A stretch of 64,000 bases of DNA from positions 1,302,001 to 1,366,000 of the forward strand of contig NC_042508.1 in NCBI RefSeq assembly GCF_003054445.1, in the 5' to 3' direction. The position numbers were made by a program, and so were the translations under genes. Under the pieces are notes generated by a model. The model ran no database searches, had not been told where the DNA came from, and worked only from the letters and a program-made list of their open reading frames with translations. This DNA is from Pichia kudriavzevii. Its lineage: Eukaryota > Ascomycota > Pichiomycetes > Pichiales > Pichiaceae. Below, piece after piece: positions 31,907 through 35,288 of this stretch. Position 1 is the first letter of the stretch. Every line of letters begins with the position of its first letter.

Positions 31907-32788
31907 TTATTGCAATGCATATTTTGCGAAATTTGGCAAGACAAAGGCAGCAGAGTGGATGTCTTTTGAGTAGTATTTGTATAATTTTTCCTCTTCGGTT
32001 TCAGAGACAGATCTAAGTGGTTTCTTCAAATCGACCTTGGAGTTCTTGGAACAAACCATAAACCCAATTTGGCCTGTTGGATATGTCGGGATTGTTGTGT
32101 ACGCATATTCGACATTTGTGAAAACATCTTTACAAGCGGACTTTAATTCCTTGATAATATCTAAATGGATCCACATTGATTCTGCCTGTGTGGTAATAAC
32201 TCCATCTTCAGTCAACGCATCGTGCAACAACTGGAAGTATGGTTTTTGAAATAGAGAAGCTGCTGGTCCTTCAGGATCGGAGGAATCAGTGATGATGACA
32301 TCGAAGGTGTTTTTAAATTCATCCAAGAATTTAAAACCATCACCAATATGCACCTTAACCTTTGGATGACTAAACGATTTGGACATTTCGGGTAGGTACT
32401 TCTTGGCATTAGCAATTACTCCCTCGTCAATGTCGCACAAGACTGCCTCTTCGACAGAGTCATGCTTAACAACTTCTCTCAAAACACCTCCATCACCACC
32501 GCCAATGACTAACACCTTCCTTGGATTAGGATGCGAGTTCATGGCCAAGTGGGTAATCATTTCCTGGTAGGCAAATTCGTCTCTCTCCGTTGCCTGGATG
32601 GCACCATCCAAAACCAAAACGTTACCATAGTCTGTCGACTTGAACACAAGTAGATCCTGATACTTGGTCTTTTCGGCATTTAGGATCCGATCAACACGTA
32701 ACGACATTGCTTGGCCTGGCCACATGGTATCTGAGACTTCGGCAAACCAACCGTCCTTGATCATAGGGTGGGAGAACTCTTTGGACAT
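31907..32788 (-). CDS. SPE3: Spermidine synthase (putrescine aminopropyltransferase), 293 aa
   Basis: The enzyme transfers an aminopropyl group from decarboxylated S-adenosylmethionine to putrescine. The conserved [20 protein letters not shown] block, the [17 protein letters not shown] and [20 protein letters not shown] stretches, and the [14 protein letters not shown] catalytic loop are all present. The last of these contains the catalytic Asp. Length (293 aa) equals that of S. cerevisiae Spe3. It is cytosolic. It lies convergent to PUP1. The nearby DUR3-like transporter could import polyamines, but it is 30 kb away and no operon-like link is implied. Confidence 0.96.
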
Positions 32789-33585
32789 TGTTGAATGTAG
32801 TATTTTCTTCTTATTTACCTCTACTTAGCTAGTCGTTTCAAACAATAGAACGACTTTGAACAGGATGAGAGTTAAAATGAACAGCTGGCAGTAGGAACCG
32901 CCAATACAACAGGGAAAACTACTGGCTTTACTAGAAACATTTGACTTTTTCTACTCTTTTGACAATGTGGACTCCAATTACAAGTGCTCTCCTGTCGGCG
33001 CTCTCATTGGCCCACTCACACAATGGCATTCAGCACGTGCTGGTCCGTAAACGGCAAGCGAAGCGCCTCTGTACAACTGTTGCACCCGCTGGATACACTG
33101 CTGTGTAAATATAAGAAAATACGCACAACGGTTAGAACAACCTACCGTTGGGAGCAGGCCGCTATAGAATGTAGCACTTCCACTACATGTTGCAACATCC
33201 TTCTCTCTTCCCCCCATTTGGGAAATGTTGAAGTAGACCAACTTTGGAAACAGTGGCATTCATGACAACACACACTTTAGGCTGAGCCTTCCTACCAATT
33301 AAGAAGAATGCAGAGAAAATAACCGCGGTGCCAAACCGAAATACGGGTTTTTTTTTCCTTTTTTTTTTCCTTTTTTTTCCTTTTCTTTTTCCTTTTTTTT
33401 TTCCTATTTTTTTCCTATTTTTTTTCCTATTTTTTTTTTTTTTGATTAGACGCTGCGCAAAAATGCAGACGCGACGGTACACGGAATGTTTACGTAAAAT
33501 GGAACGCTTGGATTTACGGATTACTTGTACACACTCTCCTACAGATTGTTCAAGAGCTTCTTCAAGGGCTTCTTCAAGGGCTTTT
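32789..33585. other. SPE3 promoter region, and ADE8 3' end with repeats
   Basis: This 797-bp region has no supported gene. The part at 32960-33260 is open on both strands in overlapping frames that mirror each other, a sign of chance. A pyrimidine-only tract and a 12-base tandem repeat lie toward the ADE8 end. The SPE3 core promoter should fall in the first 200 bp. Confidence 0.4.
33350..33443 (+). repeat. T-rich pyrimidine tract with regular CC interruptions
   Basis: About 95 bases consist of T runs broken by CC or CCTA, with no G. The strand bias is complete. It lies between SPE3 and ADE8, about 140 bp downstream of the ADE8 stop. Such homopyrimidine tracts exclude nucleosomes and are prone to replication slippage. 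Confidence 0.8.
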
Positions 33586-33590
33586 TCAAC
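33550..33590 (+). repeat. Twelve-base tandem repeat across the ADE8 stop codon
   Basis: A GGGCTTCTTCAA-type unit occurs about three times with small changes, reaching into the ADE8 termination codon at 33586-33588. Slippage here could alter the very end of the ADE8 reading frame, which is relevant to its unusual terminal motif. Confidence 0.7.
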
Positions 33591-34410
33591 AGACAACACA
33601 AAAAGACTTCTTCTTGTCTCTCTTCTTGTCCTTCTTCGCAATTGGACTCTTTTTAGCCGTCTCTGCCTTCTTGGAGTCGGCTAAAGCCTTGGCTTTGGCC
33701 TCTTTGGCCTTTTGCGCCTTCTCGGCCTCTTCCTTCTCCTTTGCTGCCTGGGAAGCTTTGGCCTCCGCTTCCTCTCTGGACTTCTCCAGTGCCAACTGTG
33801 CACCTTCGACAATCGCAACGTGTTCAAGGTCGTGGATCTTCTTCTCCCACGCATCAACACTCTCTCCCTGTGTAACTTCGAGCTCCTTCACCACAAGCGG
33901 CTCACCCATATCCACTGCCTCAATGACATAGTGCACCATGCATCCTCCCTTTGTAATCTCTCCCTTTCGACCTGCTTCCCAAGACCTCTCAATAGCATGG
34001 GTTCCCTCAAACGTCCCTGGCAACGCCGGATGTAAGTTGATGATCGGAATACCCACTTGGGACAACGGCTCGAGGAACGCCATCGAAAGTATCAACATCC
34101 AGCCCGCACAGACAACTAAATCAGGCTCCTCCGCAATCACCACCTGTGCCAAATCGGAATCAAACTGGTCCCGGGCAACTTTACGCTCCTCCTTACTATC
34201 TTTTGGTATGCCCTTATAGTACTCCTTCAATTGGTGCACTTGAATGGGAATCTTCGCATGCGCTGCTCTTGCTAGCCCATATGCATCTGGTGATGACGAA
34301 ATAACCTTCACAATATCTGCATCCAACTTCTTAGGTTCCTTAGTGGATGCATCAATAAGGGCCTGTAAATTCGACCCACTTCCTGATATTAAAACAACAA
34401 TCTTTGCCAT
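33586..34410 (-). CDS. ADE8: Phosphoribosylglycinamide (GAR) formyltransferase with a polybasic CaaX-like tail, 274 aa
   Basis: The enzyme transfers a formyl group from 10-formyltetrahydrofolate to GAR, step 3 of purine synthesis. The first 208 residues align with S. cerevisiae Ade8 (214 aa). Shared blocks are AKIVVLISGSGSNLQALID, DLVVCAGWMLIL, INLHPALPG (catalytic Asn and His) and GGCMVHYVIEAVDMGEPLVV (catalytic Asp). The last 66 residues are extra: a Glu/Lys/Ala-rich, probably helical segment, then KKDKKRDKKKSFCVVC. The four terminal residues fit a CaaX prenylation box (Cys-Val-Val-Cys), preceded by a polybasic stretch as in K-Ras4B or Rho1. Membrane anchoring is inference. The ATG at 34410 matches the family start; an upstream in-frame ATG at 34500 adds 30 residues without homology. 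Confidence 0.93.
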   Translation of the reverse strand: MAKIVVLISGSGSNLQALIDASTKEPKKLDADIVKVISSSPDAYGLARAAHAKIPIQVHQLKEYYKGIPKDSKEERKVARDQFDSDLAQVVIAEEPDLVVCAGWMLILSMAFLEPLSQVGIPIINLHPALPGTFEGTHAIERSWEAGRKGEITKGGCMVHYVIEAVDMGEPLVVKELEVTQGESVDAWEKKIHDLEHVAIVEGAQLALEKSREEAEAKASQAAKEKEEAEKAQKAKEAKAKALADSKKAETAKKSPIAKKDKKRDKKKSFCVVC

Positions 34411-34639
34411 GGTGTATGGTGTTTGCTCTATCCGAGTCACTTGATATTGTTGAGACCTGCTAGATGGTGAATAGCTAACATCAAAACAACCATTTACCAT
34501 GAGGAAGAAGTCACAATTTCATGGAGCAATTTTCTATTTTTCAAACACCCCTCATTAACCCTCGAATTCCGCAATTTCACACATTGTAATGGCCGGCCAA
34601 GGTTCAATACGGGGTAGAGGTGCCTGCTTTAATCCATAG

Positions 34640-35191
34640 TTAGTTGTTGACCTGCTTCATCCATTTCTTGCCTTCCTCATAGGAATGTGTAGATATCTTG
34701 AAGAGCTTCTTCTCAAACGAATCCAATGTTTGTATAAACTCCAAGTTTTCTCGTGAATGCATTTCTGATGCATTGAATGACAAATCATTGATTCGTCCGG
34801 CCCTGGTGATTAACATTTCATAGACTATTTCTACTAATTCTGGCTGCTCGATGAACTCACACCATTTCTCTACGATTTTGTAGAAATGTTCTATAATCGA
34901 GAGGTCGGCATTTAGTGGTGACGCTTTGTAGAAATTGGTTGCTAGCTTACTCAAATACTCCGGCCTCTCAACAGTAAATAAGCTTCTGCTATTGTCACCC
35001 TCTTCCTCGGAAATGAAGATGTGGGATAATGCATTGACCAAATAAAACGGTAACTCAAGCTTTTCACTTGGAGTGATTTTCGAAGATTCGTGAGAATTCA
35101 TTAAAAATCCAACATTCTCCACCTCTATCTGGAACGTACCTGTGAATTTCTGTGACTCTGCTAGAATCTCATCCAGATCATCATATATCAT
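34640..35191 (-). CDS. PSF3: GINS complex subunit Psf3, 183 aa
   Basis: The start MIYDDLDEILAESQKFTGTF follows the Psf3 pattern (GYYDIDDVLADGTEFPCKF), and the C-terminus SHESYEEGKKWM-like segment (STHSYEEGKKWMKQV) matches as well. The PSEKLELPFYLVNAL stretch corresponds to the central A-domain. Psf3 is one of four GINS subunits of the CMG replicative helicase in the nucleus. An in-frame ATG at 35287 would add 32 residues absent from relatives, so 35191 is used. An ACGCGT MCB box lies 98 bp upstream, as expected for a G1/S-regulated replication gene. Confidence 0.88.
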   Translation of the reverse strand: MIYDDLDEILAESQKFTGTFQIEVENVGFLMNSHESSKITPSEKLELPFYLVNALSHIFISEEEGDNSRSLFTVERPEYLSKLATNFYKASPLNADLSIIEHFYKIVEKWCEFIEQPELVEIVYEMLITRAGRINDLSFNASEMHSRENLEFIQTLDSFEKKLFKISTHSYEEGKKWMKQVNN

Positions 35192-35288
35192 TGTAATTAT
35201 ATTTATGGTTGGGTGCCAAAGCTTCTTCATGAAAAGTAGATAGTCAACTCGTTCAGAAGATCCTCTATTTAGAAGACAAAAATACAAA

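Follow-up and report, generated by a model that had tools for sequence, protein, structure and literature searches.

We analysed a 64,000-nucleotide stretch of the Pichia kudriavzevii genome (NC_042508.1, positions 1,302,001 to 1,366,000, which we refer to as the window), in which ADE8, the gene for phosphoribosylglycinamide formyltransferase (GAR transformylase), is encoded on the minus strand, with a spermidine synthase gene (31907-32788) on one side and a PSF3/GINS-type gene (34640-35230) on the other. The frame, which was read directly, opens with an ATG at 34408-34410 and closes with a TGA at 33586-33588, and the product is likely the 274-residue protein that begins at this ATG. A further in-frame ATG upstream, at 34500, gives an open frame of 304 aa; the added 30 residues are probably 5' leader, because no counterpart was seen in the Pichia-clade rows examined and because a TGACTC, which we take to be a Gcn4/Bas1-type site, lies inside them. 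Between the spermidine synthase gene and ADE8 stands a T-rich tract of 96 bases (33348-33443) with a period of 11-12 bases (T9CC or T9CCT). A scan of viral contigs gave no result.

Table 1. Features at the ADE8 locus (positions are those of the window)
Feature	Position	Strand	Basis
ADE8 CDS (phosphoribosylglycinamide formyltransferase), 274 aa + stop	33586..34410	minus	ORF; PF00551
In-frame 30-aa upstream extension of ADE8	34411..34500	minus	holds TGACTC at 34434-34439
Catalytic core of Ade8, 208 residues	33787..34410	minus	N125, H127, D167 invariant, 44-row alignment
Predicted continuous 69-residue helix, residues 185-253	33652..33858	minus	AlphaFold2
Basic C-terminal segment, residues 255-274 (SPIAKKDKKRDKKKSFCVVC)	33589..33648	minus	no regular structure predicted; pLDDT <50 at 265-274
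C-V-V-C, candidate CaaX prenylation box	33589..33600	minus	sequence
12-base tandem array, 2.6 copies, coding for the polybasic DKK(K/R) repeat	33607..33637	minus	repeat analysis
12-base tandem array with the ADE8 stop, running on downstream, 3.4 copies	33549..33589	minus	repeat analysis

Judged by its residues, the ADE8 product is an active-looking GAR transformylase: the PF00551 (Formyl_trans_N) match covers residues 3-202 with 160.6 bits (cut-off 26.1, 4.5e-47), human GART and bacterial PurN structures match the core by sequence, and N125, H127 and D167, which we take to be the catalytic Asn/His/Asp of E. coli PurN, are unchanged in all 44 aligned rows. The complete PF00551 core, the invariant catalytic residues and the match to human GART structures are what it has in common with the cytosolic GAR transformylases (Ade8, PurN and the GART domain), whereas the P. 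kudriavzevii protein adds to them a tail of 66 residues with a candidate lipid anchor.

This tail ends KKDKKRDKKKSFCVVC-stop. In the AlphaFold2 model (44 rows; confident core) a single helix leads out of the core and on into the Lys/Ala/Glu tail, with pLDDT block means of 91-97 over residues 221-250, in a type of Lys/Ala/Glu-rich tail for which AlphaFold may overstate helices. The last 21 residues hold nine basic and two acidic residues, a polybasic stretch beside the box. Codon usage came to -0.02 in the core, -0.05 in the tail and 0.18 and -0.00 in the two shifted frames, values that do not set the tail apart. Within the species the comparison is between the window and one protein of another assembly (P0001; sources lgn and ena), which matches all 274 residues (100% identity), the one difference being a single residue in the extension upstream of the core.

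The first-pass annotation had described the frame, the 208-residue core, the 66-residue tail with its final CVVC, and the stop as we find them in the sequence and its translation, and had remarked that the stop codon lies at a 12-base repeat, which it does, falling inside the downstream array. It had also named a frame-shifting correction before the stop as grounds for refutation; a frame or sequencing error special to the window was rejected, since P0001 carries the identical tail and a window-specific frame error is therefore unlikely. The three array units that follow the stop likewise give TGA when read in the frame of ADE8, and because the 12-base period divides by three, CVVC is spared if whole units are gained or lost beyond the stop. 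The polybasic run, being itself a 12-base repeat, could be a slippage product. Past the stop (33431-33588, minus strand) the other two frames read KKPLKKPLKKLLNNL and EKALEEALEEALEQSV..., with the array open in both; an older, longer tail may once have been cut by a frameshift.

Ade8 ends in Pichia kluyveri and other relatives

The homologue set comprised 178 different rows from three protein searches (the best 120 of ~8000 scored candidates each, with clusters at 90% identity shown by one representative each), and the names P. membranifaciens and P. fermentans appear on none of the 178 homologues listed. A Cys at position -4 was found in four of these 178 (P0001, P0011, P0012 and P0013) and in none outside two species: P. 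kudriavzevii, where V-V-C follows the Cys, and P. kluyveri, where T-I-M follows it. P0012 is P. kluyveri by name, and P0011 and P0013 share 96-97% identity with it.

The tail of P. kluyveri Ade8 (residues 211-399 of P0012, roughly 190 residues) is unrelated to that of P. kudriavzevii: Glu, Val, Thr and Pro abound in it and its net charge is -40, and in the predicted structure the helix stops at residue 220, with the next 179 residues unstructured at low confidence. All three P. kluyveri-type sequences end ...SRTCGICTIM, that is, in a CTIM box with an extra Cys upstream; by its letters CTIM reads as a textbook CaaX box, and in passages of PMC11304957 a yeast Rho GTPase carries it. Between the three sequences the repeat region differs by 5-10 residues, with the last 40 residues identical and the box kept in 3/3. 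The Ade8 observation is more than a one-sequence curiosity, because the P. kluyveri enzyme is also boxed.

In the core tree the Pichia clade holds 18 rows, or 16 lineages with P. kluyveri counted once, and a CaaX box was seen in two of the 16; the other 14 lack a box, and their sequences run on past the EHxAIVxG motif for either 10-15 or 27-41 residues. The best core tree keeps P. kudriavzevii and P. kluyveri apart, in which case two changes are needed for the box; a constraint joining the two species, which amounts to a single origin of the box, was not rejected (p-AU 0.35).

A different feature was seen at the other end of P. californica Ade8 (P0008), where residues 1-34 form an N-terminal extension, MFSCFSRRVKKSIKK..., with a Cys followed by a basic stretch; the nearest rows to it (P0017 and P0019) are without such an extension. 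Going by its composition, this extension could be a different lipid anchor.

The CVVC box and the prenylation machinery

According to passages of PMC10320760, what mainly limits yeast farnesyltransferase (FTase) is a D, E, K or R at a2 and a K, P or R at X, and the decision tree for the yeast enzyme in the same paper allows CVVC, which has V at a2 and C at X. As a prenylation signal CVVC is not an optimal box. GGTase-I prefers L/F/I/M/V at X in passages of PMC11304957, Cys not being among them, and since passages of PMC1175975 describe FTase as tolerating many X residues and GGTase-I as favouring Leu and Met, FTase is the likelier enzyme. CVVC was absent from the main text of two yeast CXXX screens and of the machine-learning paper. 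Passages of PMC1175975 also describe the prenylation linker as some 11 residues, flexible and hydrophilic, ahead of the Cys, with small or flexible hydrophilic residues favoured at -1. Before the CVVC region of Ade8 stands KKDKKRDKKKS, for which no regular structure is predicted, and the end of the protein is predicted to be disordered, as expected of such a linker; at -1 there is a bulky Phe, and the residue before the P. kluyveri box is Ile, against the small or hydrophilic residue favoured there.

A Cys at -4 occurs in two of the 29 ATG-started frames of at least 150 aa in the window, Ade8 and a Ras-family GTPase, set beside a database rate of 1.7% published in PMC1175975 (as given in passages of that paper); in Ade8 we read this Cys as probably more than chance. 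The Ras-family GTPase of the window (PF00071; 46184-47065, minus strand) ends SRCCTIM.

The prenyltransferase genes expected of such a reading are found in the P. kudriavzevii genome, where the best beta-subunit matches are L002 for FTase, L003 for GGTase-II and L004 for GGTase-I, and PPTA alpha-type repeat genes stand at two places. Ras-family matches number 27 (two in one gene), nine of them in frames ending C-a-a-X. One of these nine, a RhoA/Rho1-type GTPase (L019; G000 C2:860248-860754), ends GCCTIC, a CaaX box that is unusual in having Cys at X; X = Cys therefore occurs in P. kudriavzevii on a protein of a prenylated class. Geranylgeranylation of Ade8 by the Rab enzyme was rejected: the Rab ends listed in passages of PMC1175975 are without CVVC, and that paper describes the enzyme as acting, so far as known, on Rabs alone.

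Nine other purine and one-carbon proteins were assigned by family (Ade4, Ade5,7, Ade6, Ade2, Ade1, Ade13, Ade16/17 and two FTHFS-type, that is C1-THF synthase-like, proteins; enzymes after IMP lie outside the set), and a Cys at -4 was found in none of the nine. A general anchoring of purine enzymes was rejected on this count; a multi-enzyme complex built through shared lipid anchors is therefore unsupported, and Ade8 alone would be anchored. The first-pass annotation had proposed that a prenylated Ade8 might organise the purine enzymes or couple them to a transporter or TORC signalling: the 0/9 result speaks against the former, and we obtained no support for the latter. Its prenylation reading is itself strengthened by the CTIM of P. 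kluyveri Ade8, by a CaaC end on a Rho-type GTPase and by the prenyltransferase genes, and the absence of the box in close relatives, which it had named as a refutation, went both ways, 14 of the 16 Pichia-clade lineages being without a box and P. kluyveri having one.

Readings of the Ade8 C-terminus

From the sequence evidence, prenylation of Ade8 is likely, and were Ade8 prenylated, membrane anchoring would follow. We put at about 60% the probability that in two species of Pichia this GAR transformylase is prenylated and membrane-tethered, by a different tail in each. We infer the modification, processing, membrane and purpose of the tail as follows. The C-terminus would be a lipid-anchor module, in which about 45 residues of helix past the core would serve as a stalk of ~65-70 angstrom (at 1.5 angstrom per residue), followed by a flexible, lysine-rich segment ending CVVC, the Cys of which would be prenylated by the cytosolic farnesyltransferase (GGTase-I being less likely). 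CaaX processing after prenylation consists of Rce1/Ste24 cleavage and then Ste14 methylation, and with valine at a2 both would probably come next. Polybasic stretches and extra cysteines are known from Ras work as second signals for the membrane; here lipid and polybasic charge together would hold Ade8 at the cytosolic face of a membrane, as happens with K-Ras4B, the plasma membrane being the likeliest one. The P. kluyveri enzyme would reach the same end state through a long acidic chain, predicted to be disordered, that closes with CGICTIM, with the upstream Cys, if palmitoylated as in H-Ras and yeast Ras2, as the second signal in place of the polybasic stretch. That prenyl anchoring of GAR transformylase arose twice independently in Pichia, on two unrelated tethers, is on the same evidence doubtful, and the P. 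californica MFSCFSRRVKKSIKK extension might represent a third solution by another anchor.

Several features of the locus would also suit a neutral, low-complexity tail, grown by slippage and closed by a chance stop after CVVC, with its Cys unmodified or incidentally modified: relatives have Ade8 tails of very different length and make-up, the end of ADE8 holds two 12-base arrays, there is no box in 14 of the 16 Pichia-clade lineages seen, and codon usage fails to set the tail apart from the other two frames. We nevertheless regard a neutral tail as improbable, since in P. kluyveri an unrelated tail carries a box that is better still, kept in all three sequences while the repeats vary. At the PrePS false-positive rate for FTase of 0.11% published in PMC1175975 (as given in passages of that paper), the chance of at least one predicted box among the 15 other Pichia-clade lineages is ~1.6%, with the first box taken as given and kinship among rows ignored, and this too counts against neutrality, as do the mostly hydrophilic linkers before both boxes. 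Composition could instead point to the basic end (KKDKKRDKKK) as a nuclear or nucleolar signal, or as a tail that binds nucleic acid or an acidic partner, with a fortuitous CVVC: to the eye the lysine-rich stretch looks like a monopartite NLS, and basic residues outnumber acidic ones by nine to two in the last 21. This reading fits poorly with P. kluyveri, whose tail is acidic and shares with that of P. kudriavzevii the CaaX end only; we also know of no nuclear role for GAR transformylase, and consider the reading distinctly unlikely.

A further alternative accepts the prenyl group on Ade8 and assigns it to protein-protein assembly rather than to membrane anchoring. It draws on phosphorylase b kinase, an enzyme of a different pathway and a different fold from Ade8. 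In passages of PMC5014548 its alpha (CAMQ) and beta (CVLS) subunits are CaaX proteins, making it, like Ade8, a metabolic enzyme with a CaaX box, and both reportedly keep their CaaX motifs after prenylation; its modification is reported there from biophysical work, whereas that of Ade8 is predicted. We think assembly very unlikely as the purpose, because Val at a2 with a polybasic stretch, or the extra Cys of P. kluyveri, corresponds to the usual second signals for membranes. Ade8 also resembles the polybasic CaaX GTPases of the K-Ras4B and Rho type, in which a Cys-aliphatic-aliphatic-X box likewise follows a lysine-rich segment, and of which P. kudriavzevii has its own, ending KKSKKSKKCTIL (L011) and KKKKCTIL (L013). 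Ade8 differs from these in being a housekeeping purine enzyme without a GTPase domain, in having Cys at X and Phe before the box Cys, and in the long predicted helix between core and anchor.

The de novo synthesis of purines is regarded as a cytosolic pathway, and the spatial organisation of its enzymes is debated. Among the matches listed from titles and abstracts of the open-licence literature we found no description of a prenylated GAR transformylase, and in the open-licence literature we found none of CVVC with prenylation or of P. kudriavzevii with prenylation. If Ade8 is indeed prenylated and membrane-tethered, one step of purine synthesis would be placed on a membrane and tied to isoprenoid supply, a housekeeping biosynthetic enzyme would join the prenylated metabolic enzymes, and a lipid-anchored Ade8 in two yeasts would offer a one-Cys genetic handle on location versus flux. 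The Ade8 tails also bear on the gain and loss of CaaX boxes on fast-evolving tails.

A hydrophobic end motif in other yeast Ade8 tails

The first-pass annotation had held that Ade8 homologues normally end at the core, which does not agree with the alignment: 40 of 168 rows extend past core+9 by 12 residues or more. A different motif, hydrophobic-x-x-hydrophobic-x-hydrophobic, is present within the final 22 residues in 22 of these 40 long-tailed rows (P0003, P0004, P0005, P0007, P0010, P0021, P0024, P0027, P0132, P0142 and others), with MENLHL, MDKLSL, LESLAI and LDKLKV as examples. Shuffles (n = 500) gave a mean of 4.9 such rows (s.d. 2.0, highest 13), a comparison in which significance is overstated because the Ade8 rows are related. 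The motif was seen in Lipomyces, Pichia and Spathaspora, and is absent in P. kudriavzevii and P. kluyveri. The hydrophobic end is possibly an undescribed docking motif, and a tempting reading is that Ade8 tails often close with such a motif and that P. kudriavzevii and P. kluyveri may have swapped it for a lipid.
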